Positions 15,626 to 28,863 of a stretch of DNA of 64,000 bases are shown piece by piece. The first letter of the stretch is position 1, and each line of letters opens with the position of its first letter. The stretch spans positions 37,381-101,380 of the forward strand of contig NZ_JASFYE010000005.1 in NCBI RefSeq assembly GCF_030055425.1. The letters run 5' to 3'. The DNA comes from Methanothermobacter sp. (lineage in GTDB: Archaea; Methanobacteriota; Methanobacteria; Methanobacteriales; Methanothermobacteraceae). The translations under genes were made by a program, and so were the position numbers. The notes under the pieces are model-generated. The model had not been told where the DNA came from. It saw only the letters and a program-made list of their open reading frames with translations, and did no database searches.

Positions 15626-15791
15626 GGACGATACTATTAAATGTTTTTTTCAGATCAACTCAGCCGCCTAAATTCTATTTTGGGGGCTGACCGGGACGAT
15701 ACTATTAAATGTTTTTTTCAGATCTCAGAATATCCGCCAATATTTGAGTCAGAATCAAGAGACCAGATACTATTAAATGTTTTTTCAGATC
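15626..15791. repeat. Three copies of a promoter-like repeat upstream of the MrfA-like gene
   Basis: Copies lie at 15626-15656, 15694-15724 and 15766-15791 (the last shorter, with one T fewer). On the minus strand each reads as an A-rich stretch followed by ATTTAATAGTAT, which looks like a BRE plus TATA box. The copy nearest the gene places its TATA about 27 bp from the helicase ATG, the spacing of a leaderless archaeal transcript. The other two would be duplicated promoters or operator sites. Spacers are 37 and 41 bp. Confidence 0.8.
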
Positions 15792-16656: not shown

Positions 16657-16659
16657 AAA

Positions 16660-18534
16660 TCAAGAACTGTCCCAAGAATCGATTATCTTTTTCTTAAATT
16701 TTTGAAGTTCATCGTCACTAACTACTTTTCCATTTATAAGTAAGTATCCCTTTAAAGTTCTAAGAATGAAAGACACTATTGCATGCCCTATCATATCCCC
16801 CTTAAGGCCATATGGTGGCTTAGCAAGAAATATTAAATCCTTTTCATTTATTGCGCCCCTTTTGGATACTCTTTCTATAGCCACCTCAATCATAGTTTTT
16901 ACTGGATGGTAGATATTTTCCATGAAGCGAAGATTATCATCGACAATCCAGTTTCCATTGGAATCACGTAATAGATAAGATAAATAAGATATAATACCTT
17001 TTTTAGTCTTTGATTTGAATTCATTGAGATTTTCAGAAAGAAGAAATATTTCCGAGATTTTTGGATAATTTCCATTCTTCCATAAGTTTCTATTCTTACG
17101 TATATTAGTAATATTTTCAGGACCTAAAGGGAAAATTCTTCTTGAGAAATCATTGTTTATCATTTCACTAATATGCAAAAGTTTGTTACAATAGCCTGAT
17201 TCACCATTAATATGCCAAAAAAAGCCAGAATGCAACATATCAATAATCCATAGGGAAACTATTTGATTCGCTTTTTCGTGATATTCTTCATTTAATGTAA
17301 ATCCACGTGTTTTGTTATTGAGAAACAATTCAAATTCTTTAAAATGTTCACAGGGCACTATAGAAACTAGATTTTTATAATTAAATAACTGTTTCGCTTT
17401 ATCATTCAATAATATTACATCTTCCTTATTTATAGATAAAAAGAGGGCTATATTTATGTTCTGGTTGTTGAATTTAAAATTTTGTAGCTGTTTCTCTATC
17501 AAGGCAATATCTTTGAAATCTACAAGAATTAAATTAACATCACGATTTGTTGATTTCTTGAAAAGATTTTTAAATTCTGTTTTATCTCTAAAAATGGCAG
17601 AAGGTCTTTTATACATATTTTTTATTAATTTTTCTCTGATTTCTGTTTCATATTTTCCAAGTCTTATTTTTTCGTGGCTTTTGAGGGACTTCAAGTAACA
17701 TTTAAGTATATTTTTTGATTCTAGATCTCTAAGTTCAACAAAATCTTCATTGAAATTAGAGATAATTTCAAGTTCCTCTAACATCTTTAAGTGATTTATT
17801 AAATTCTTTTTTGATATTCCAAATAACTTATATGGCCCTCCAGGGCAGTTTTTATCATAGATTTCTTCAAAGGAAATTCTAGAGGTTTCAAGATATTCCG
17901 CTAATTTATAAATGCTATATACAACCATATATGGCTCAATATTAACAGTTTTTCTGATTATATGCCGAACAGAATTACCCTTCATTTCAATAGAAACTAG
18001 TTTTCTTAATCTTGAATGTCTAAAAAGGTTAAATAAAGCGCTTACAGCATTCATTGCTGATTTTTTTCCTAAATTTTCATTTTCCAGAATCAGATTTAAA
18101 ACGTCATTTTTTGTTACCTTTACATTAAATTGTATGAAATCACAGAAAAAATTGACAATAGGAGATCCATAATATAGGTTTACCCATAAAACAAAAAAAG
18201 TAAAATCTGGATTCAAGAAATAAATTTCTAATAAATCCTGAGATAAATCTTTTAAGCTTAATAAATTAGCGTCTAGAAGCCAGTTAATTACTGCTTTTAT
18301 TTGAATGGGGCCAAGGTTACTCTCAGATTTTATCCAATCTTCACCATAAATCAGATAATCGATGAGCCATTCTTCCCTTAAGCCAAATGTAGAATACTTG
18401 TCAAATCCTTTTTTAAGCATGATATCACTGATAACTACTTTTTTTGTTGCTTCATTGACCATATAATATGGAACAACGAAAGTATTTAAAAGTAGAAAAT
18501 TTAATTTATCTATATAACATTTTTCTCCCTTCAT
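16660..18534 (-). CDS. DUF4007-like protein of the defence-type island
   Basis: The 624-residue protein is unassigned. Its first 160 residues resemble DUF4007: a GLREEWLIDYL region, then NLGPIQIKAVINWLLDANLL, then an FNVKVTKNDVLNLI stretch and a helix before NLFRHSRL. DUF4007 proteins are known as neighbours of DNA phosphorothioation genes, which fits a modification-linked role. The middle has a winged-helix-like part (about 215-275), and the C-terminal half has no recognised catalytic motif. It is divergent from the LAGLIDADG/RHH gene with only 30 bp between the starts. No Shine-Dalgarno precedes the ATG, so it may be leaderless. Confidence 0.5.
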   Translation of the reverse strand: MKGEKCYIDKLNFLLLNTFVVPYYMVNEATKKVVISDIMLKKGFDKYSTFGLREEWLIDYLIYGEDWIKSESNLGPIQIKAVINWLLDANLLSLKDLSQDLLEIYFLNPDFTFFVLWVNLYYGSPIVNFFCDFIQFNVKVTKNDVLNLILENENLGKKSAMNAVSALFNLFRHSRLRKLVSIEMKGNSVRHIIRKTVNIEPYMVVYSIYKLAEYLETSRISFEEIYDKNCPGGPYKLFGISKKNLINHLKMLEELEIISNFNEDFVELRDLESKNILKCYLKSLKSHEKIRLGKYETEIREKLIKNMYKRPSAIFRDKTEFKNLFKKSTNRDVNLILVDFKDIALIEKQLQNFKFNNQNINIALFLSINKEDVILLNDKAKQLFNYKNLVSIVPCEHFKEFELFLNNKTRGFTLNEEYHEKANQIVSLWIIDMLHSGFFWHINGESGYCNKLLHISEMINNDFSRRIFPLGPENITNIRKNRNLWKNGNYPKISEIFLLSENLNEFKSKTKKGIISYLSYLLRDSNGNWIVDDNLRFMENIYHPVKTMIEVAIERVSKRGAINEKDLIFLAKPPYGLKGDMIGHAIVSFILRTLKGYLLINGKVVSDDELQKFKKKIIDSWDSS

Positions 18535-18564
18535 TTATAACGTTATTACTAATATGGTGATTTC

Positions 18565-19665
18565 ATGCAAAGATTGGAATTCAAAAAAGACGCCATATTT
18601 TTACCTTATCTCGCAGGATACTTTGATGCAAGAGGTTCATTCATTGTTGACAAATATAATAACATTATAATGAATTTTTATGGAGATGAAAAATTCTTAG
18701 AAGAGCTTAATTCTCTTTTTGGCGTTGGTACTGTTACCTTAATGCCAAATGCTACTTGGAAGATTATGAACAACGATATTTCTGTCATTTTAGATCAGCT
18801 GATATCCTATATAATAATAAAAAAGGACCAAGCATTACAAGTAAGTAACACTATAAAAGATAAAGAGTTCTGTTTTGTTATAAAAGAACCTCCTGAGGAA
18901 ATAAATTTTTTTGATTATGTTAAAGAGGAATGGTTTTATCTATACCTTCTAGGCTATTTTGATGGTTCCTCCCGCTGGAATTTAAAGGAATATAAGAAAT
19001 CAAATGAATATTATCTTCAGATTAGCCTTATATCCGAATATGAAGACTTGGTTGTACTTCTATCTGAGGTTTTTAATTTAGGTTATATAATCCCCTACAA
19101 TGATAAGTTTAAATTCATAGCTATGTTCCAAGATTCACTTGAATTAATCGATAAGTTAGAACCTTTCTTGCTAAATAAAAGATCTGAATTAGAAATGGCA
19201 CTAAAATTCAAAAAACTTCTTTATTTAGGCAAATACGAAGAAATAGAGAAGTTTATGGATGAATTTAAGTCAGAAAAACAAAATTTATCGAGTAATACAA
19301 CAAGGATAATTAATGTGTGTGAAAAGTTATTTAGAAAGGTTCAGTCTAAAACTAAATACCTCGAAATAAGTAAATCAAAATTCTGTCAGGAAGCCATCTA
19401 CTATTCCTATGACAACTTAGACTTGTTTAAAAGCACCGGAGATTTGTGTGAGGGTAAAAAAAAGGAATTTCAGATAGCAATCAACATAAACAACCACCTT
19501 GAGGAAAAAATAAATGTTTTATCTAATTTTGATGAGTCTAAAAGTTCTGCAATAAGAAGAGCTATAACGTTCTATTTAAATGATTTAGACTCTGAAAATG
19601 AGGTTAATGAGTTAAATGAAGATATTGATCCATTTGATTTACTTGATCAATTAAAAAAACAATAG
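18565..19665 (+). CDS. Dead double LAGLIDADG protein fused to two ribbon-helix-helix domains
   Basis: The 366-residue protein contains two LAGLIDADG-type motifs: LAGYFDARGS (16-25) and LLGYFDGSS (127-135). In homing endonucleases the acidic residue just before the final glycine is catalytic; here it is arginine in the first motif and serine in the second, so cleavage should be lost. Two segments near the end, about 243-284 and 299-340, each fit a ribbon-helix-helix (CopG-like) DNA-binding fold: a short strand, then two helices (FQIAININ..., SKSSAIRRAITFYL). A DNA-binding regulator made from a former endonuclease is the simplest reading. The ATG follows GGTGAT. Confidence 0.7.
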   Translation: MQRLEFKKDAIFLPYLAGYFDARGSFIVDKYNNIIMNFYGDEKFLEELNSLFGVGTVTLMPNATWKIMNNDISVILDQLISYIIIKKDQALQVSNTIKDKEFCFVIKEPPEEINFFDYVKEEWFYLYLLGYFDGSSRWNLKEYKKSNEYYLQISLISEYEDLVVLLSEVFNLGYIIPYNDKFKFIAMFQDSLELIDKLEPFLLNKRSELEMALKFKKLLYLGKYEEIEKFMDEFKSEKQNLSSNTTRIINVCEKLFRKVQSKTKYLEISKSKFCQEAIYYSYDNLDLFKSTGDLCEGKKKEFQIAININNHLEEKINVLSNFDESKSSAIRRAITFYLNDLDSENEVNELNEDIDPFDLLDQLKKQ

Positions 19666-19675
19666 GAGGACTCTA

Positions 19676-20176
19676 TTGGCTCCCCCCAAACTTCCAGCTT
19701 CAAAAAAATGGAGAGAATCTCTAGAAAGAGATTTTGGATTTACCTACATTTCATCTAGAAAAAAATTACCTGATCCTGATAGTGTCATATGGACTACCTC
19801 CTGCTCAAAAACAAAAAAGACGCAGAGATTAGGGATGCCTAGGGACTTTTACAATGGACGTTATCACAATCGATTTTATGAGTATGTCGAGAATAATAAC
19901 CTCACATACGGCATACTTTCTGATAAATATGGTATTCATATGTTTGATGAAAAATTAGGATACTACGACATACATCCACAGGAATTAACACTAGAAAAAA
20001 AGGAAGAACTTGGAAAATTTATCAATAGAAAAGCAAAAAGATATGGGTTTGACGAAATTATTTTTTATTACCCAAGCCCGCTAATGTCCAAACCTTACTT
20101 TGAAATTTTATGGTTCTCGAATCTAAAGGTGTATTATATGAGTAAATTTAATTTAACTAGGGAAATAGAACCCTAG
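19676..20176 (+). CDS. YaaA/DUF6884-like small protein, possible base-modification partner
   Basis: The 166-residue protein has a TTG start five bases after GGAGGA. The motif TTSCSKTKK, then PRDFYNGRY, YGILSDKYGIH and a YYDI pair resemble the YaaA/DUF6884 fold, where the serine/cysteine/lysine stretch and ARxLYxG-like segment are typical. Related domains occur in the archaeosine-making enzyme ArcS and near 7-deazaguanine DNA genes. Beside a DpdA-like enzyme, a role in finishing a modified base is plausible but inferred. It follows the LAGLIDADG/RHH gene by 10 bp and overlaps the convergent ATPase gene by 24 bp at the 3' ends. Confidence 0.55.
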   Translation: MAPPKLPASKKWRESLERDFGFTYISSRKKLPDPDSVIWTTSCSKTKKTQRLGMPRDFYNGRYHNRFYEYVENNNLTYGILSDKYGIHMFDEKLGYYDIHPQELTLEKKEELGKFINRKAKRYGFDEIIFYYPSPLMSKPYFEILWFSNLKVYYMSKFNLTREIEP

Positions 20177-23100
20177 TTTGATATAACCTTTCTTAATGAG
20201 CCCATCCTGAGCTTTCTTAAAGTCTATATTTTCTTTTAGCGCTCTTTTTTTAAGTTTCTCATAATCAATAATTCCAGCTTCACTCATAGAGTTTATAGCC
20301 TTTAAAAGGCCCAATTCATCAGGACTGAGATATTCTTTCATTTGATATTCAAATTCTTTCTTAATTTTTAATTTTAAAACATCTATTTGTGAAGCTGAAA
20401 CTTCTTGCTCAGTTATATCATTTTTTAGTTTTGACCCGAACTCTTTTATTAAATCCTCAAGAGCCGCTCTCGAATCATCACTAATTCTAACCCGGTAAAG
20501 AACATTTTCATATTCCTTAATAAATTCTAACTGTTGTTTCCTGTAATTCCTCCAAATTTCTTTTATGGGCTTGTTAACATCATAGTTCAAGTCCTGATTC
20601 AAATTATCCACTAGTTCAAGCCAATTTCCATGTTCCTTTTGATAATCTCTTAAGTCTTGCAAATTTAGATCCTTGTAATTCTCTTTAACAGAATTAAATT
20701 TCTCTTTATATTTATTTAATTCGTTTTTTTCTAATTTACCATCGTCGAATATTTTATCAGAGATATCTAATATTTCCTGAGTATGGCTAATTGTATCCAA
20801 TAGCATCTTTTCCTTATTCATCAAGTCATTTAGGTAGTTTAATAACCTGTCGACCTTTTCTAACTTATCTCTTAGTTCTTTAATCCTTTCTTTTATTCGA
20901 TCCCTTAGTTTTCTCAAAGAAATGGGAGATATTTTCTTTTCAGACACATTTATGCTAATCGACTTTATCTCTTCAAAAAATTCTGTTGTTAATTTTAATT
21001 TTGGGTCAATCTGAATACTTTTTAGTTTACTATCGACTTTATTTCTTCTTTTTTTAAGTTCATCAATATCCAAATCTTTTAAAAGTGAGTATGGCCTTCT
21101 AGAATCGAATTCTAATTCCTTTTGTTTAATTTTATAGAACTTTAGGTTATAATAATATGCTGTTGATGGAGATTTATCAAATTTAAAGTGATCAAAATCG
21201 TCAAGATTTGAAATTGCATTTTCTAATTCTTCCTTTGTGCAGGAACTTTCGTATAGTTTTTTTATTCCTTCAAAATCATTTAACATGTTGGTATATTCCT
21301 TAATACTTTTAACTCCACCATCAATTTTTAATTTCAGTATATTTTCACAATCCTTAGAGATTGTCTCAAGGGATCTTTCAAACTCATTTTTTATCTTTTT
21401 AATTTCATTAAAAGATTCTTTACTTTTTCTGGCTGCGCCTTCAAAAAAGGTTTTTAAACACCGTTGGTTTTTACCGCAAGAAAATATTTCCGTTAAAAGT
21501 TTTTTACATATGAAAATTTTTGTTGAAACTGCTTCTTTATAATCTGGGTGTCCATAATATTCTTTTATAAAATCAGAATTTTCATTAACGAAACTCGTAA
21601 ACTCATCTAACATGATAAGTTTATGACCCTTCTTTTTGGTCATGAAAATATGTCCAAAGAGTTTGTATAACTCTTTTCTTTCAAGCTCTTTATTAAATTT
21701 ATCTAAATATTTCAAAATCTCTTTGTATTCCTCTTCTATGTTTGTAATTTCTATTTCATCTCTATTTCTCTTTATTTTATTTTTATATTCTAAAATATTC
21801 AGAAATAGATCAGAAAAAATGTTTTTACTTTTTGATTTGAGTATAAAATAAAGATTGAGGTCGTTCTCTTTAATTTTGCCTTCCTTCTTGATTATTTCAT
21901 ATATTCTCCTTTCAACAGGATGTTCAATGACTTTATATTTACCATCTAATTCTTCTAAAAAGCCATGTTCACGTAACTCAATGGATATTTTCTTGACATC
22001 CTCTGGGGAATCTTCAAGGTCGCTTCTAATAAAACCTTTCTTAGTTCCATAAAGTTTAAATTTTAATATGCCATTCAAATTTTTCTCTAAAACTTCATTT
22101 GCAGATAGTGGTTCATTAATATAATTTAAATATAATTTAAGCGTATCAGCAAATTTACTTAAGTTTTCGGTTGCTACTTGATCTACAACTAATCCCTTTT
22201 TCTTCTGGATTTTAAGCCATTCTCTAATATTTTCTTGAAGCTTAAGATCATCAAAAATATTTTTAAATTCTATATTAAGTAATGACTTGTCAACAGATTT
22301 ATTGCGTGACTCGTATGCACAAAGAAGCCGTTTAGTTAATGTTTGATGAAGATGGATATCTATAAGTTGAGATGTCCCTTTTTTACCTAATCCCTCCAAT
22401 TCAAGGCGTTCGCGAGCTCTTTGTGTAAACTCTCCATTATATACTAAGAGACAGCCATGAATACTAAAATCATTTTTTAGAGTTTCTGAAATTTCTTTAA
22501 TATGAGTTTCTTTAATGTCTCCTTGCACAAATTTAGTTAATAATCTAATATCAACTTCTAGATCAGGATCATGTAACTTTAAAATCACTTCGTTTTCTCT
22601 CAATTCCGAACCTGTAACATCAACTTTCTTGTAGGTAACCTTAAGTTTTTTATAAGTTTCAAGTCCTTCAATAAATGCACTTTCGATATTGTTTTTATAT
22701 TCCTCTGCAAGGTTTAATGAGATTCTCCTCCAAATTGATAATCTTTCTTCTTTCTTGAGAATATATCCTAAGAACCTTGGAATAGGCGTAGGATACAAGA
22801 TTTCTACAAAGGTATTTGAAATTATGTAATATCGCTCACTTTCATCCACCATGTCCCTGAAAAGTGCCTCTATCTCATTTAAATAATCTTCACTTACCTC
22901 ATTCTTGAATAGTTCTTTAAGACTTTCTGACGTAGTTGGAATAAATATTCTCGTATTTAAAGCATCTGAATTGCCCTCAAAAAATGTTATAGAATCTTCG
23001 AATTGATCCAGTGGTTCTGAGTAATCACCTATCTGAAGAACCTCTTTTTGCAGAATGTCATCGGTTTTTATATAATCACTCAACTTTTCTTTTATATCTT

Positions 23101-24376
23101 CAAAACTTAGATGTTCTTTGAGCGGAAATACAGGTATAATAGCGTTATCGATACCATGTTCATTTTCTACCTTCTCATTGATGATACGAATAAATTTATA
23201 TACGCTGGCTTCTTCGGTATCGATGAATTTAGATAAATCTCCTATGGAGATAGGCCTCATATAAGCTATTAAAATGTTAAATAGATTTATTAAAGATTTT
23301 ATTTTATCTTTGGACACTTCTGATGTATCTTTAAGATATCTTAAGATATTTTTATAATTTTCCACATCAACACAAAGTGTTTGGGCTCCAAAAACGTATA
23401 TTCTAGTCTCTTGTAAAAAATCAATAAAGTGGTCATATTCAACTACTTCGAAAAAGTCTTCATCATAGTTCGCAAATTTAGTAAAAAGTTCAATAAACAA
23501 CTTCTTCAAGTTACCCAAATTTCCCAGGCTTAGTCTATGAAGAGTATCAAATATTCCACTATCTCCCAGCGGATAAGGAGTTGGTTCTGATCTATCGTAC
23601 AATCTTTTAATAAGATTTCTCAAAAATTCTATGGATTCCTGCTTTCTTATAGTGCTTAATTCTACCTCATCAACTCTCCTTTCATACCCGCCCGCAATTA
23701 AACTTAGTTCTTCATCTGTTTCGAGCCTATATTTAGCATCAGGTGTTAATGAGATAAATAAATGTACAGAACCTGAAAAATCACCATTAACATCTATTTT
23801 TTTATAACTGCCATTAATAAGCTCTTTAATACCTGAAATCATGCTTTTAAGAGTCTCAGGAGTATTTAAAAGCTCTTCAAATTCGTCTATGAATATAAAT
23901 ATCCTTTGAGATCCATTGTAATCTCCCAAGATGAAGTCAAGTGCATCCTCAAGATAGTCCTCTGGAAATTCGTAACTTTTAATTGATGGTAAACCAATTT
24001 CATTTTCAGCGTTTACGCCCTCAAATATTGTGGAAAGTATTCTTACAGATGAAAGAGAGCTTCTTTCAATAACATCGATCATTTCTTTGGTCTTTAAAAT
24101 ATTAGAAAGAGTTGATGCAGACACAAAGAAGGCCATATGACCTTTTTCTTCTAGTTCTTTTCTAATAAAGCCATTATAAAGCTCAGTTTTTCCCTGACCC
24201 CATTCTCCTATAATATTACAAGCGTTAAGACCTTTTGAAACTTCACACCTTTTTATATAATCTCTTAGCTTGTTTATAACATGTTTTCTACTTTCTATTT
24301 CCTCAAAACTTGTTCCATTTTCCTCTTTTGAAACCCAAGAAGTTAAATTTTCTTTTTTGTATATCTGAGTTTTCAT
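20153..24376 (-). CDS. 1407-residue P-loop ATPase with long helical C-terminal region
   Basis: The N-terminus is an AAA+/STAND-like ATPase: Walker A GEWGQGKTE at about 57-65 and Walker B FIFIDEFEELL at about 160-170. Winged-helix-like segments and a long, charged, mostly helical region (about 850-1250) with coiled-coil character follow, ending in a helical domain. Size and layout recall ATPases of BREX (BrxC/PglY) and the ATPase of Dpd clusters, but I cannot assign a family. The ATG at 24376 follows GGGTGAT by three bases; a start at 24406 would overlap herA. It is the fourth gene of the dpdA-nurA-herA run and probably powers or senses for the system. Confidence 0.7.
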   Translation of the reverse strand: MKTQIYKKENLTSWVSKEENGTSFEEIESRKHVINKLRDYIKRCEVSKGLNACNIIGEWGQGKTELYNGFIRKELEEKGHMAFFVSASTLSNILKTKEMIDVIERSSLSSVRILSTIFEGVNAENEIGLPSIKSYEFPEDYLEDALDFILGDYNGSQRIFIFIDEFEELLNTPETLKSMISGIKELINGSYKKIDVNGDFSGSVHLFISLTPDAKYRLETDEELSLIAGGYERRVDEVELSTIRKQESIEFLRNLIKRLYDRSEPTPYPLGDSGIFDTLHRLSLGNLGNLKKLFIELFTKFANYDEDFFEVVEYDHFIDFLQETRIYVFGAQTLCVDVENYKNILRYLKDTSEVSKDKIKSLINLFNILIAYMRPISIGDLSKFIDTEEASVYKFIRIINEKVENEHGIDNAIIPVFPLKEHLSFEDIKEKLSDYIKTDDILQKEVLQIGDYSEPLDQFEDSITFFEGNSDALNTRIFIPTTSESLKELFKNEVSEDYLNEIEALFRDMVDESERYYIISNTFVEILYPTPIPRFLGYILKKEERLSIWRRISLNLAEEYKNNIESAFIEGLETYKKLKVTYKKVDVTGSELRENEVILKLHDPDLEVDIRLLTKFVQGDIKETHIKEISETLKNDFSIHGCLLVYNGEFTQRARERLELEGLGKKGTSQLIDIHLHQTLTKRLLCAYESRNKSVDKSLLNIEFKNIFDDLKLQENIREWLKIQKKKGLVVDQVATENLSKFADTLKLYLNYINEPLSANEVLEKNLNGILKFKLYGTKKGFIRSDLEDSPEDVKKISIELREHGFLEELDGKYKVIEHPVERRIYEIIKKEGKIKENDLNLYFILKSKSKNIFSDLFLNILEYKNKIKRNRDEIEITNIEEEYKEILKYLDKFNKELERKELYKLFGHIFMTKKKGHKLIMLDEFTSFVNENSDFIKEYYGHPDYKEAVSTKIFICKKLLTEIFSCGKNQRCLKTFFEGAARKSKESFNEIKKIKNEFERSLETISKDCENILKLKIDGGVKSIKEYTNMLNDFEGIKKLYESSCTKEELENAISNLDDFDHFKFDKSPSTAYYYNLKFYKIKQKELEFDSRRPYSLLKDLDIDELKKRRNKVDSKLKSIQIDPKLKLTTEFFEEIKSISINVSEKKISPISLRKLRDRIKERIKELRDKLEKVDRLLNYLNDLMNKEKMLLDTISHTQEILDISDKIFDDGKLEKNELNKYKEKFNSVKENYKDLNLQDLRDYQKEHGNWLELVDNLNQDLNYDVNKPIKEIWRNYRKQQLEFIKEYENVLYRVRISDDSRAALEDLIKEFGSKLKNDITEQEVSASQIDVLKLKIKKEFEYQMKEYLSPDELGLLKAINSMSEAGIIDYEKLKKRALKENIDFKKAQDGLIKKGYIKLGFYFPS

Positions 24377-24389
24377 AAGATCACCCATA

Positions 24390-26069
24390 TTACTCAAATC
24401 CTTCACGTAGTCTTTTTAGAGTTGAAACAACATCAGTTGTACCCATAGGATGTGGAACTATTCTATCACTCTTAGGAATTTTGATCATCATTGGAAATGG
24501 TAATTTGTTCATCTGACCTGTTACTATCATATGGCCCTGAGTTAGACGTGTTAAGCGATTTTCAAGTGAAGAAGGGAGACCTCCAGTGGCTGTTCTAACA
24601 TAAGAAACATCATCAGGAGAAATTCTATGTATAAAAAATGTGTTGCACATAGACAAAACTATTTTATCAATAAATGAAGGTCTTTGAGTTACAATGCATA
24701 GTGACAATCCAAATTTTCTACCCTGAGTTGCAATTAAAGATAACTTATTCTTAGCTAAGCTAGAGCTTATAGGATAACTCCTATCTGGAATAAAGTTTTG
24801 AGCTTCCTCTATTAAGAAAATTAAATATCTTGTCCTGTTTTCAATTTTGTATTTTGAGAATTTGTTAAAAAGCAAATTAGCCAGATATGTCATTACAAGC
24901 TGTTTTACTCGAATATCAACACCAGTAGCCCCCTCCTCAGAAAAATCAATTATTGCAATCCCGCCGTTTTCTGTAATGTCATCAATAAAATCATCTCTGG
25001 TTAATTCTGATTCAGATTTCGCTGATAATATCCCATAATTATATTCTATTTCCCTGAATTTTTCGAATGCTCTTTCAATAGCAGGTTTAGTAGCAGAGGC
25101 TATTCTTTTGTTATCAAAGTTTCTTAATTGTCTTATTAATTCTTCATAGCTATCATCATCAACAAAGAAATCATGTAGTGACTCATAACCTAAGTTTTCT
25201 TTTATATACTCGAATAGAGTTACTATTCCATTTACTTGAAGTTCTGCACCATCTAAACTTCCTTTATAATACATTACAATTGTTTCAGCCATTTCTTTAA
25301 CTGAAAGACGGTCTAAATCAATACCAATGACAGGTTCTCCAACTAATTCCTGGTTTTCGTTTGCTATGTGAGGAAATACAAATCTTTTAACCCATCCCAC
25401 AGGACTTATTCCGGGATCTACATCCCCATAATCATATTTTTTAAAATATTTATCATACTCCAGGTAATCTCCATTTGCATCTATGATCATCATAGGAAAT
25501 GAAACAGCACGACTTTCACTTGCTTTAATACCCATAAACTTCTCAATCAATACCCCCGTACTAAAAGATTTTCCACTACCTGTTGTACCGAATACTGCCA
25601 TGTGCATTGGGACTTTCTCAATATCTAAAGGTATTGGTGCCTTTTTGTAACCAAATAGTGTTCCAAACCATATATAACCAGGTTCATCCCTTGAAATGCC
25701 AAATATATCTTCATAGTGCTCTTCAAGATCTATCTTTAAAACTTCATCCCCTGGTTTTGGAGGATAATTGACTTCAGTGTTAGGAAGTTGAATTAAAAGA
25801 TCCAATTCACATATCTCATACTTGCGGGCGATGTTATCTGGAATAGGCAGACCTTTACGACGTGCCTCAGACCAAGGATCATCTTCAGTATAATAAGCGT
25901 TAAATGGAACTATTTTAGCTACTCGTGCAAGGATCTTACTGCCCATTTTTGTAGCAACTAAAACCAGCATCCCCTCATAAATATTTCCTGACTCAGAACT
26001 CTCCAATAGTTGAAATTTAGCAGTCTTTGTTGTTGCACCGCTTAAAACAATACCAATTTTGTCTTTAAT
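24390..26069 (-). CDS. herA: HerA-type hexameric ATPase/translocase
   Basis: HerA proteins form hexamers that pump DNA and stimulate the NurA nuclease at DNA ends. The 559-residue protein starts with the HAS-barrel (IGIVLSGATT) and has Walker A FGTTGSGKS at about 160-168 and Walker B LIFLIEEAQNF at about 415-425. A late VTQRPS motif completes the family signature. Archaeal herA usually sits next to nurA, as here. The reading frame needs a start upstream of the TTG at 26006, because the barrel strand is coded there. An ATT at 26067-26069, four bases after GGGGTGAT, is the only candidate with a good ribosome site. GC content is low, so this is an island copy, probably not the housekeeping herA. 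Confidence 0.85.
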   Translation of the reverse strand: MKDKIGIVLSGATTKTAKFQLLESSESGNIYEGMLVLVATKMGSKILARVAKIVPFNAYYTEDDPWSEARRKGLPIPDNIARKYEICELDLLIQLPNTEVNYPPKPGDEVLKIDLEEHYEDIFGISRDEPGYIWFGTLFGYKKAPIPLDIEKVPMHMAVFGTTGSGKSFSTGVLIEKFMGIKASESRAVSFPMMIIDANGDYLEYDKYFKKYDYGDVDPGISPVGWVKRFVFPHIANENQELVGEPVIGIDLDRLSVKEMAETIVMYYKGSLDGAELQVNGIVTLFEYIKENLGYESLHDFFVDDDSYEELIRQLRNFDNKRIASATKPAIERAFEKFREIEYNYGILSAKSESELTRDDFIDDITENGGIAIIDFSEEGATGVDIRVKQLVMTYLANLLFNKFSKYKIENRTRYLIFLIEEAQNFIPDRSYPISSSLAKNKLSLIATQGRKFGLSLCIVTQRPSFIDKIVLSMCNTFFIHRISPDDVSYVRTATGGLPSSLENRLTRLTQGHMIVTGQMNKLPFPMMIKIPKSDRIVPHPMGTTDVVSTLKRLREGFE

Positions 26070-26074
26070 TTAAA

Positions 26075-27181
26075 TCACCCCATGTTATTCATTATAATCA
26101 TGTCCTCAATGTTACCTGTTGCATGTGTTCTTGCAAGAATCTCTTCGTAAATAACCTGCGCAGCACCCCCCCTTATTTTACACTTTTCGTGGGCAATCTC
26201 AATAGGTACCGGTATATTCTGGCCTGGAAATGTCCACTCATATGACGCAGTAACTGCCCGTTGCACTCTCAAGTTAACATCACCTTTATCATACTTCATT
26301 GGAATATCAAGCCGGATAATTTCTGAAGAAAAATCTTTCTGGAAGAAAACAGAAAATATTCTGATACCATAATTAGAATATCTTCTACTTATTTCATCCT
26401 TTAATTCAAGAGGATGTGTGAAAAGAACATCGTCATAATTGTTATCAAGCCGGTATGCAGTGAAAAAGTAAGCAAAAAGGTTTTTATCTACTGAGAAATT
26501 TTTGAGTAACTTATTTCTCTCTAATTTTAAAATCCTTTCATATTCCCTTAGGAAATGGGAATCAATACATTTTTTAACACATCCTACTAAAAAAGACTGG
26601 GATGTAGCTTTTTTTATTGCATCACATCTGTATTCAACATAGTTTTCATCAATATAACCTGGTGGATCTACAACTGGCCCGTCAATAAATACAATTGATT
26701 CTGTGTTCTTTGTATTCCAATCTTCTAAAGCCTTGGTTTCCCCTAACAGCATTCTTCTTGAAGCTTCACCATCAATAGATTTGTGTTTATTCTCATCAAT
26801 TTCCTCTATTCCTGCAGCATAAACATCAACAACAGGTTCATCAGATAATCCTTTTTCAAAAAGTATCCTCACAATTGAATAAGGAGCGTACCATTTAGAA
26901 CCAATAGGCCCTACACTATAAAAACTGCCATCGATACCAACGCTGCACCATTCTCTAAACTGACCATAATCTTTAAGGTCATCGATAGTAAAAATGATTT
27001 TTTTTAGAGAAGATAAGTCTTTAAATATCTTTTTTGATTGTTCCTTTATCAAACGAAAAGTTTCACCTATTTTAGACCCCTTTTCATTGGCACTTTCAAT
27101 TAAATTTATTAAAACTTCTCCATCGGTTTCATTGAATTCTATTCTTTTTTTTATTTCATCTATATCCATTATATACACCAT
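26075..27181 (-). CDS. nurA: NurA-type nuclease
   Basis: NurA is a 5'-3' nuclease that works inside a HerA-NurA complex to resect DNA ends. The 368-residue protein shows the expected acidic sites in VGIDGSFY (D84) and VFIDGPVV (D167), a lysine in the VGCVKKC segment and a late histidine in IAHEKCKIRGGA (H331). The gene overlaps the stop of the DpdA-like gene (TAATG) and is followed directly by herA, an operon order that supports the assignment. An alternative ATG at 27169 has GGTGT upstream and would shorten it by four residues. In this island the pair is likelier to act on foreign DNA than in general repair, but that is inference. Confidence 0.85.
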   Translation of the reverse strand: MVYIMDIDEIKKRIEFNETDGEVLINLIESANEKGSKIGETFRLIKEQSKKIFKDLSSLKKIIFTIDDLKDYGQFREWCSVGIDGSFYSVGPIGSKWYAPYSIVRILFEKGLSDEPVVDVYAAGIEEIDENKHKSIDGEASRRMLLGETKALEDWNTKNTESIVFIDGPVVDPPGYIDENYVEYRCDAIKKATSQSFLVGCVKKCIDSHFLREYERILKLERNKLLKNFSVDKNLFAYFFTAYRLDNNYDDVLFTHPLELKDEISRRYSNYGIRIFSVFFQKDFSSEIIRLDIPMKYDKGDVNLRVQRAVTASYEWTFPGQNIPVPIEIAHEKCKIRGGAAQVIYEEILARTHATGNIEDMIIMNNMG

Positions 27182-28320
27182 TACCCCAGTTTCTGATGAA
27201 CCACTTCCTGAAGAGCGTAATTAAAATGTTTTGAAAAAAATCCTTTTTTTAATCTTTCATTGCAGAAATCAAAACAACTGCCATCCAATAATTTCTCATA
27301 ATACAAATCCCTTTCCCTCATAAAAACCCAAGCATTATGTATTGCTCTGCTCTTAAAATCAGAATCTAATACTTCTATTTTCTCTTTTAAAGATTTGTAT
27401 CTACAAATTGGACATTCACAAAGATCTAAAAGTTTTTTGTCATCTTTACTTAAAGAAGGCCTTCCATTGTTCTTATTAAGAGGATATCTATCACCTACCC
27501 CTGGCAGCTGAATACAGCCATAGGCCGCTTTTAATCTCCAGCCCATTGAGTCAAGGGAATCAACACCTAAGGAGTACATCAGATGCATGGATTTCGCGCT
27601 GCCAATACCAAAAACATGCAATAAAGAATCTGGGAATTCCTTCCTTACCATTCTTACCGAGTCTATTATGAAGTTAACACTATTTTTAAATTTTTTACTC
27701 CCCCTACATTTAAAAATCAAAGGAACTATACTGCCCAATCCAATAATAGGAGGATTCTCATGAATCTTCTTTATGTCATTACAACTATTTCTAAGATCCT
27801 CTAAAGAATAACCATGAACAACGGGTATTAACGGAATTTTACCATTTTTTAACATTAAATCAGAATTTTGAAGAGTTTTCATCCACCTATCCTTATTCTT
27901 CATCTCATTTTCCAAGGGATTGAGTGGATGATCAAGCACAACACCTAGATCTGGCTTGGACATTTCATAAAGTTCAAGTATGTCTTCTGGATCAACTTCT
28001 AAACTATCCTTTTTCTGAAAGGAGAATCCTCCAGAGTCCATTATCACTAAACCGTCGAAGCCCAGATATTTGTGGATCCCTTTTTCGCATATTTCTTCGT
28101 ATACTCTTCGATTTCTAATAATTTCATACGCACTAACCATGATGGTCTCAATATCAAAATGATTCCATATATGTGGCTGAGCTGAGGGAAGGTGCCCTAG
28201 CCATAATAAAGGTGTATAAACTGATTTTTTGTTAATTTTTAACTTTGCAGATCTTACAAGAGGAAATGTATCATCAACATAATGATCTTTAAAGGAAACC
28301 TTACTACTCCACAAGCTCAC
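27181..28320 (-). CDS. dpdA: DpdA-like TGT-family enzyme, probably for 7-deazaguanine insertion into DNA
   Basis: The 379-residue protein belongs to the tRNA-guanine transglycosylase superfamily. Visible are MDSGGFSF (general-base aspartate D95), PVVHG, a GLGS segment, GVDSLDS (nucleophile region, D254/D257) and a zinc site CxCxxC (301-306) plus H328. It lacks the PUA-containing tail of the archaeal tRNA enzyme ArcTGT and is shorter. DpdA proteins of this family swap guanine for a preQ0-type base in DNA, and methanogens already make preQ0 for archaeosine. With NurA and HerA downstream in one operon, DNA rather than tRNA is the likely substrate. Start GTG follows GGGTGAT. First gene of the run. 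Confidence 0.7.
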   Translation of the reverse strand: MSLWSSKVSFKDHYVDDTFPLVRSAKLKINKKSVYTPLLWLGHLPSAQPHIWNHFDIETIMVSAYEIIRNRRVYEEICEKGIHKYLGFDGLVIMDSGGFSFQKKDSLEVDPEDILELYEMSKPDLGVVLDHPLNPLENEMKNKDRWMKTLQNSDLMLKNGKIPLIPVVHGYSLEDLRNSCNDIKKIHENPPIIGLGSIVPLIFKCRGSKKFKNSVNFIIDSVRMVRKEFPDSLLHVFGIGSAKSMHLMYSLGVDSLDSMGWRLKAAYGCIQLPGVGDRYPLNKNNGRPSLSKDDKKLLDLCECPICRYKSLKEKIEVLDSDFKSRAIHNAWVFMRERDLYYEKLLDGSCFDFCNERLKKGFFSKHFNYALQEVVHQKLG

Positions 28321-28509
28321 CTAATCACCCGCGCTTGATATGATAAATTATTACTGTAATGAATACATTGAGTTAGTAATACTCCTCTATATCTTCTATA
28401 ATCTTTACTATTAAATGATAACCATTAACAAAAAATAAAAAAGTTAAATAATAGCTACAAAGATAAATATCGTGTTACGAAAAATAACCATGATAAAAAT
28501 AAATTAATA
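28321..28509. promoter_or_regulatory. Upstream region of the dpdA-nurA-herA-ATPase operon
   Basis: This 189-bp AT-rich gap separates the island operon from the end of the Roadblock gene. It should hold the operon promoter on the minus strand; an AATAATTTATCA-like TATA stretch lies about 27 bp before the GTG. Near 28371-28381 the minus strand reads TATTACTAA, a 9-mer also present at 18544-18552 before the LAGLIDADG/RHH gene. No open reading frame or structured RNA is seen. Confidence 0.45.
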
Positions 28510-28863
28510 TTATCCGAGAAGGTCACTTAACCTCTCGGCGCTCCTCTTCATCTCTATCCTGATCATTCCCAGGTTCACATCCACATCGGTTATCACGACG
28601 AGGATCCCCTCACCGGCATCGATCATGAGGGTCTTACCACGTTTACCCTCAATCATGACCTGCTCGAGGGGCTCATGCTTTATCTCCTCGGCCGACCTCT
28701 CGGCTGTACCGAACACCGCTGAGGCCATTGCACCCACGAGTTCCGCGTCGATGTCACCTGAAACCTCACTCTCTATTATGAGACCGTCCTTTCCAACAAC
28801 AAGGGATCCGTTAACACCGTTCACCCTTCCAAGGTCCTTGAGTATCCTCTCTATCAACTTCAA
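28510..28863 (-). CDS. Roadblock/LC7-domain protein
   Basis: The 117-residue protein is a single Roadblock/LC7 domain, the fold of MglB that binds small GTPases in bacteria and archaea. The start has the usual helix, then [12 protein letters not shown] and a later [19 protein letters not shown] strand pair. Many archaea carry such proteins in pairs with small GTPases; no GTPase gene is nearby here. The start is TTG at 28863 or 28857, with AGGGGG just upstream. It lies a few bases after the Hmd-related gene and is probably co-transcribed with it. Confidence 0.8.

Follow-up and report, generated by a model that had tools for sequence, protein, structure and literature searches.

A candidate archaeal modification-and-restriction cassette that joins a short TGT-family transglycosylase to NurA and HerA in Methanothermobacter

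The described systems closest to the locus examined here are the bacterial Dpd system (dpdA-K), in which DUF6884 has been named as the dpdC domain (PMC11888242); the BREX-Related Capture (BRC) systems, which are predicted to combine components of capture and of Dpd (PMC12839542); and the 7-deazaguanine modification genes of phages and viruses, whose carriers already include two Bicaudaviridae (PMC6884629). Measurements on a phage that encodes ArcS showed dG+, dPreQ0, and dADG in its DNA (PMC6884629). The locus compared with them lies in a 64,000-nt stretch of a Methanothermobacter sp. genome (assembly GCF_030055425.1, contig NZ_JASFYE010000005.1, positions 37,381 to 101,380), here called the window, where an AT-rich island holds a cassette of five genes coding for a short TGT-family transglycosylase, the nuclease NurA, the translocase HerA, a large ATPase, and a DUF6884 protein. 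Judged from the sequence, this cassette is probably an archaeal antiviral system of the modification-and-restriction type, with a probability of roughly 0.62. The island and the cassette genes are as follows.

16657..28480, strand not applicable: AT-rich island, GC 0.311 versus 0.520 to its left and 0.505 to its right
27181..28320, minus strand: short TGT, 379 aa, first gene of the operon (Pfam PF01702, 4e-18)
26075..27181, minus strand: NurA-family nuclease, 368 aa (Pfam PF09376, 5e-9), overlapping the TGT gene by 1 nt
24390..26069, minus strand: HerA-type hexameric DNA translocase (PF01935, DUF87, 3e-24), 538 aa if read from TTG 26006
20153..24406, minus strand: AAA/STAND-like ATPase, 1411 to 1417 aa (AAA_22, 1e-4), overlapping HerA
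19676..20176, plus strand: DUF6884 protein, 166 aa (PF21818, 32.5 bits versus a cut-off of 30), convergent with the ATPase gene with a 24-nt overlap

The minus-strand genes form an operon in the order TGT, NurA, HerA, ATPase, and overlap or are closely spaced. Gene content and coordinates of these four genes were as given in a preliminary description of the same DNA, apart from starts and lengths. The 1407 residues that it gave for the ATPase are the length of a homologue in another genome (G009, below); the window protein has 1417 aa from a GTG and probably 1411 from an ATG. The start of HerA is probably a rare ATT at 26069, because conserved residues precede TTG 26006 and the frame is conserved upstream as far as that ATT; in both the host genome (G000) and a sibling genome (G004), a GTG upstream of HerA has a TAA two codons downstream (26006-26083).

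In the sibling genome, the same island is present with 95 to 99% protein identity. A more distant copy was found in another family of the same order (G009), with identities of 52% for TGT, 46% for NurA, 67% for HerA, 37% for the ATPase, and 56% for DUF6884. The gene order there is the same and DUF6884 is again convergent with the ATPase gene, in a different neighborhood beside McrBC-like genes. The core was limited to the five genes because the G009 copy has neither of the two remaining island genes nearby. Across the whole phylum, the window-type ATPase was confined to 3 of 152 genomes.

A HerA profile was searched in the phyla of one Bathyarchaeota locus (Thermoproteota) and one Lokiarchaeota locus (Asgard). 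At E ≤ 1e-50 it was found in 19 of 398 Thermoproteota genomes and 6 of 228 Asgard genomes (25/626), and 20 HerA loci were fetched and annotated with our own profiles. A NurA-family gene lay beside or near HerA in most of the 20, and a short TGT adjoined HerA genes in six (L111, L116, L120, L121, L124, and L126). A large ATPase homologous to that of the window stood beside HerA in L109, L110, L111, and L122 to L126, all of which except L125 also had NurA; in L116 to L121 an ATPase of 960 to 1020 aa occupied the same position. Where TGT-less NurA-HerA loci were checked for another modification enzyme nearby, the neighbors were ordinary. The preliminary description had made its proposal depend on repeated co-occurrence of these genes in other genomes, and the association of TGT with NurA-HerA does recur, scattered across three archaeal phyla. 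Scans of viral contigs gave no relative, and scans of genome contigs gave only the distant TGTs L053 and L054.

The TGT of the window has no C-terminal tRNA-binding extension of the kind found in ArcTGT. Its catalytic Asp95 (DSGGF) and Asp257 (DSLDS) and the zinc ligands Cys303, Cys306, and His328 were invariant across six divergent TGTs. Although it had been called DpdA-like, only its placement in the TGT family held (Pfam 4e-18); against the curated DpdA model NF041059 it scored 50.3 bits versus a cut-off of 200. Its best NCBIfam score was with the archaeosine-TGT model (108 bits), likewise far under the cut-off. In a 36-sequence tree, nine NurA-HerA-linked TGTs formed one group (89/91), which also took in the TGTs of an Aulosira plasmid and of Sulfolobus virus STSV1; the curated DpdA clade (100/100), ArcTGT, and the haloarchaeal lineages fell outside. 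The deep branching order is unsure because several branches are long. The enzyme is predicted to be a preQ0 (7-deazaguanine) transglycosylase acting on DNA.

The adjacent HerA (DUF87) and NurA domains keep their active-site motifs and thus form a nuclease pair. HerA has a Walker A motif (GTTGSGKS) and IEEAQN, and the NurA motifs GIDGSF, FIDGP, RLDIP, and AHEKCKI are preserved in close relatives and partly in distant ones. NurA gave no plasmid match. The large ATPase has Walker A (GEWGQGKTE) and Walker B (FIFIDEFEE) motifs and a winged-helix-like C-terminal end, and is related to the L116-type cassette ATPase by profile-to-profile comparison (99%, 4e-18). AAA_22 was its only match, with none to DUF6079 or BrxC; the related 1020-aa ATPase of L121 gave a weak match to the BrxC_BrxD P-loop (5e-4). 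An AlphaFold model of the ATPase N terminus was too poor for use (pLDDT 45.9), and searches of solved structures with NurA, the ATPase, and DUF6884 returned nothing meaningful.

The fifth core gene bears on what becomes of the base. According to Pfam, DUF6884 is a distant relative of YaaA that has a probable active site and the motifs CxxxK and LSAxxG (PMC11701544), and the window protein contains CSKTK, which fits the first motif, and LSDKYG, which resembles the second. The link to YaaA is taken from that source; a direct hhalign comparison of the window protein with Escherichia coli YaaA was not significant, its AlphaFold model was too poor for use (pLDDT 57.6), and a fold search of the PDB gave no significant match. 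PF21818 scored above its cut-off in G000, G004, and G009, placing a DpdC-type domain in all three copies. It was therefore misleading to report, as had been done, that no dpdC is present: DUF6884 is the DpdC-type domain (PMC11888242) and belongs to the conserved core. DUF6884 was adjacent or fused to TGT in 15 of 18 TGT loci; five of these are fusions, seen in haloarchaea and cyanobacteria with either domain coming first. These 15 cases are not independent events, because similarity of the TGT was the basis for collecting the loci and several of them are closely related. From its family and context, the window protein is predicted to be a DpdC-type 7-deazaguanine tailoring enzyme.

In other phyla a different domain is found in this place. 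DUF5591, the catalytic domain of the archaeosine synthase ArcS, is encoded by the gene between TGT and HerA in L116, L120, and L121 (Pfam 9e-17 in L121; the L116 and L120 proteins align closely with it and match our DUF5591 profile), and a stand-alone DUF5591 gene lies near the TGT of L111 (6e-12) and L126 (3e-9). Thus, DUF5591 accompanies TGT in five of the six TGT-bearing HerA loci, and the sixth, L124, ends at a contig end. The small DUF5591 proteins retain the ArcS motif PCxxxKP(Y), and ArcS requires only the preQ0 nucleoside in vitro (PMC11298593). DUF6884 in the window, G004, and G009 fills the role that DUF5591 has elsewhere. In L111 (9057-9821), a 255-aa protein encoded between TGT and DUF5591 looked like a PCNA sliding clamp by eye and had no Pfam match.

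The same pairing occurs in a DNA virus. In STSV1 (L084 1950-3291), ORF18 is a cassette-type TGT that nests with the TGTs of L116, L120, and L121, and directly next to it ORF19 is a DUF5591 protein (6.8e-51) with the full ArcS motif. No NurA or HerA was found within the 4.5 kb read. STSV1 carries the modification half only, as if for disguise, which is what a protective mark predicts.

Related gene sets were also seen on plasmids. Aulosira laxa plasmid6 (L020 3562-15038) has a TGT near the window clade together with DUF6884, a weak HerA-like protein, and SbcD/SbcC-like genes. It may be a bacterial counterpart that uses a different nuclease, and its gene set suggests that the TGT and tailoring module can be coupled to different end-processing nucleases. 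Each of six haloarchaeal plasmid loci (L055, L056, L058, L059, L021, and L022) encodes two TGT paralogues, of which one is fused to DUF6884 or lies next to it, along with a small BREX-type ATPase; most of the loci also have queuosine-pathway or transporter genes. By gene content they are a Dpd-like archaeal plasmid system.

In the mechanism that would account for this gene set, the TGT would swap guanine in host DNA for preQ0 supplied by the host's own archaeosine pathway; QueC, ArcTGT, an ArcS-domain protein, and a second NurA/HerA pair are encoded elsewhere in the host genome, which belongs to the Methanobacteriales and measures 1.67 Mb. DUF6884 would then finish the base in the window, likely by a nitrile-to-amide step as in DpdC, and DUF5591 would do so in the other phyla, likely by a lysine-adduct or archaeosine step of the ArcS kind. 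Recognition may fall to the large ATPase and HerA, which would load on the DNA and sense whether it is marked; unmarked DNA would then be passed by the HerA hexamer to NurA for degradation. The coupling of a marking module to NurA-HerA, put forward in the preliminary description, is thus still the best reading of the locus, with DNA as the substrate, the mark as a sign of self, and resection of unmarked DNA as its presumptive parts. No report of 7-deazaguanine in archaeal cellular DNA was found in open-access full text; subscription journals could hold one. A wider proposal could equally well prove right or wrong: that this is a widespread archaeal system in which one TGT clade and the exchangeable DUF6884 and DUF5591 write differing marks, archaeosine and a lysine adduct among them, while HerA-NurA-ATPase destroys unmarked DNA, and that viruses such as STSV1 acquired the marking half as counter-defense.

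Several observations weigh against a modification-and-restriction system. Of 23 HerA-family loci examined, only 9 had a TGT, a distribution that maps onto the HerA tree as six changes; NurA-HerA-ATPase can therefore occur where TGT is lacking. The PADLOC DpdC models match DUF6884 proteins of other TGT loci (3.6e-13), whereas the window protein is too divergent for them, so its DpdC chemistry is presumed from family and context. A profile of other DpdC-type sequences reached the window protein weakly (E of 0.006 with the broad set and 8 with the strict set). In some TGT-linked examples (L116, L120, and L121), the CxCxxC zinc motif is missing and the NurA motifs are weak. No DpdB-like protein was found. 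The missing PUA domain still allows a tRNA substrate, since PUA was not required in ArcTGT work that PMC11298593 cites.

Two further genes of the island lie outside the core.

18565..19665, plus strand: dead LAGLIDADG fold with an RHH-like C terminus (LAGLIDADG_1, 22.9 bits versus 23.1)
16660..18420, minus strand: DUF4007/BrxP-C-like protein with a BrxC-like C-terminal region (PADLOC BrxP 4e-41, BrxC 9e-30)

Both catalytic acids of the LAGLIDADG fold are replaced (LAGYFDARG and LLGYFDGSS). This gene was seen only in G000 and G004 among the 152 genomes and is absent from the G009 cassette; it appears to be an optional DNA-binding gene. The DUF4007 gene likely starts at 18420 and not at 18534, as judged by comparison with sibling proteins. 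Its Pfam match to DUF4007 was under the cut-off (2e-4), and its BrxP match is limited to the DUF4007 end (profile positions 515 to 756 of 779). Homologues occupy the same chromosomal spot in members of the genus that are without the TGT cassette, and DUF4007 is a hotspot gene. Both genes had been counted as parts of the system; as core genes they were rejected, as both are missing in G009 and DUF4007 occurs at the hotspot without the cassette. Nor does the DUF4007 gene face the operon, as had been stated, because both have the minus orientation; the plus strand of the island carries the LAGLIDADG/RHH and DUF6884 genes alone.

The composition of the island is foreign to both flanks, as first described, and its GC was the minimum among all 11.8-kb segments scanned across the 64 kb. 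It is bounded by SNase/DUF5654 genes on one side and Roadblock/Hmd-like genes on the other, in a variable defense hotspot, and comparison with six siblings bearing other cargo placed its right breakpoint at about 28480 to 28517. In the hotspot of those six genomes (L047 to L052), McrBC-like, BREX4-like, and DrmB-like genes and a DUF4007 protein replace the TGT cassette, as identified by profile and mostly by eye. Because all six hold other cargo, the empty site could not be reconstructed, and no direct repeats of at least 10 nt were found at the island ends. In one sibling (G002, L052 9803-9980), a decayed DUF6884 gene remnant in more than one frame lies beside the Roadblock gene, a trace of a lost cassette. 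Just outside the island (15626-15790), between the helicase and SNase genes, are three near-identical direct repeats of about 25 to 35 nt with the core atactattaaatgttttttcagatc.

Four other explanations were weighed. The polarity might be the reverse, with NurA-HerA-ATPase attacking 7-deazaguanine DNA and TGT acting as an effector that marks or excises bases on invader DNA. That 7-deazaguanine genes do occur in viruses and phages (PMC6884629) and that TGT-less NurA-HerA-ATPase loci exist would suit such an arrangement. However, a host expressing TGT and a tailoring enzyme would mark itself, and one would not expect a virus to retain a mark that provokes attack; reverse polarity is unlikely.

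It also seems improbable that TGT and DUF6884 or DUF5591 modify or repair tRNA while the nuclease genes are mere separate neighbors. Archaeal TGT and ArcS are tRNA enzymes, the archaeosine TGT model gave the top NCBIfam score, and the ArcTGT work referenced in PMC11298593 indicates no strict dependence on PUA. The genome, however, already holds a full ArcTGT and an ArcS-domain protein, and the cassette TGT lies outside the ArcTGT clade. Moreover, the TGT gene overlaps that of NurA, their linkage recurs in three phyla, and a TGT-DUF5591 pair is found in a DNA virus.

A module for DNA end resection or repair with TGT as a passenger is more doubtful still. Archaeal HerA-NurA is described as resecting DNA ends (PMC12977600), but a second NurA with its own adjoining HerA-like open reading frame is found elsewhere in the host genome (C5:108846), and the cassette is rare (3/152 genomes), AT-rich, and placed in a hotspot where siblings hold other cargo. 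Membership in the published BRC systems can be given very little credence: the cassette has TGT, HerA, and a large ATPase in common with them, and a DUF4007 protein is shared at this one locus (PMC12839542), but no PglZ, DUF6079, or GNAT domain was matched in the island proteins, which have NurA instead, DUF4007 is missing from the G009 cassette, and the HerA and TGT of the BRC-like plasmid locus L023 are only ~25% identical.

If the cassette is indeed a modification-and-restriction system, archaea would have one that borrows the archaeosine pathway, extra HerA-NurA pairs would have an immune role, and different tailoring domains would lead to different DNA bases. The DNA of STSV1 should then carry the same base as that of a host with the DUF5591 version.

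Among described systems, the archaeal HerA-NurA end-resection pair shares the same two families with intact motifs, but the cassette HerA is a separate family and its operon adds TGT, the ATPase, and a tailoring gene. The phage and virus sets (DpdA/DpdA2 with ArcS, Gat-QueC, and QueF-L; PMC6884629) likewise combine TGT with an ArcS-type domain, as in STSV1 ORF18-19, presumably marking viral DNA; unlike the cassette, which is in a cellular genome and tied to a nuclease, they are without NurA-HerA. Type 4 BREX (phosphorothioate; PAPS reductase with BrxC and PglZ) was not recognized, as only the DUF4007 end of BrxP matched. With Dpd, the cassette shares a TGT-family enzyme and a DpdC-type DUF6884 in one island and, presumably, a preQ0-derived mark on DNA that is coupled to a restriction half. 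It differs in that its TGT lies outside the NF041059 DpdA clade, NurA-HerA and a single large ATPase make up its effector half, and DUF5591 replaces DpdC in other phyla. No match to DpdB (DGQHR/ParB-like) or DpdD-K was found among the seven island proteins with Pfam, NCBIfam, and PADLOC. With BRC, predicted in 2026 (PMC12839542), it shares a HerA/FtsK translocase (DUF87, 3e-24), a large ATPase, and the TGT of a BRC subset; a DUF4007-like protein lies nearby in the window (PADLOC BrxP 4e-41) but is absent beside the G009 cassette. BRC, however, is built on PglZ and DUF6079, neither of which was found in the island, with GNAT, whereas the cassette nuclease is NurA, never mentioned in the text of PMC12839542, accompanied by DUF6884 or DUF5591. 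Calling the system new, as in the preliminary description, requires the qualification that TGT and HerA occur together in some loci of the earlier BRC prediction. The cassette works like Dpd and BRC and is a member of neither.

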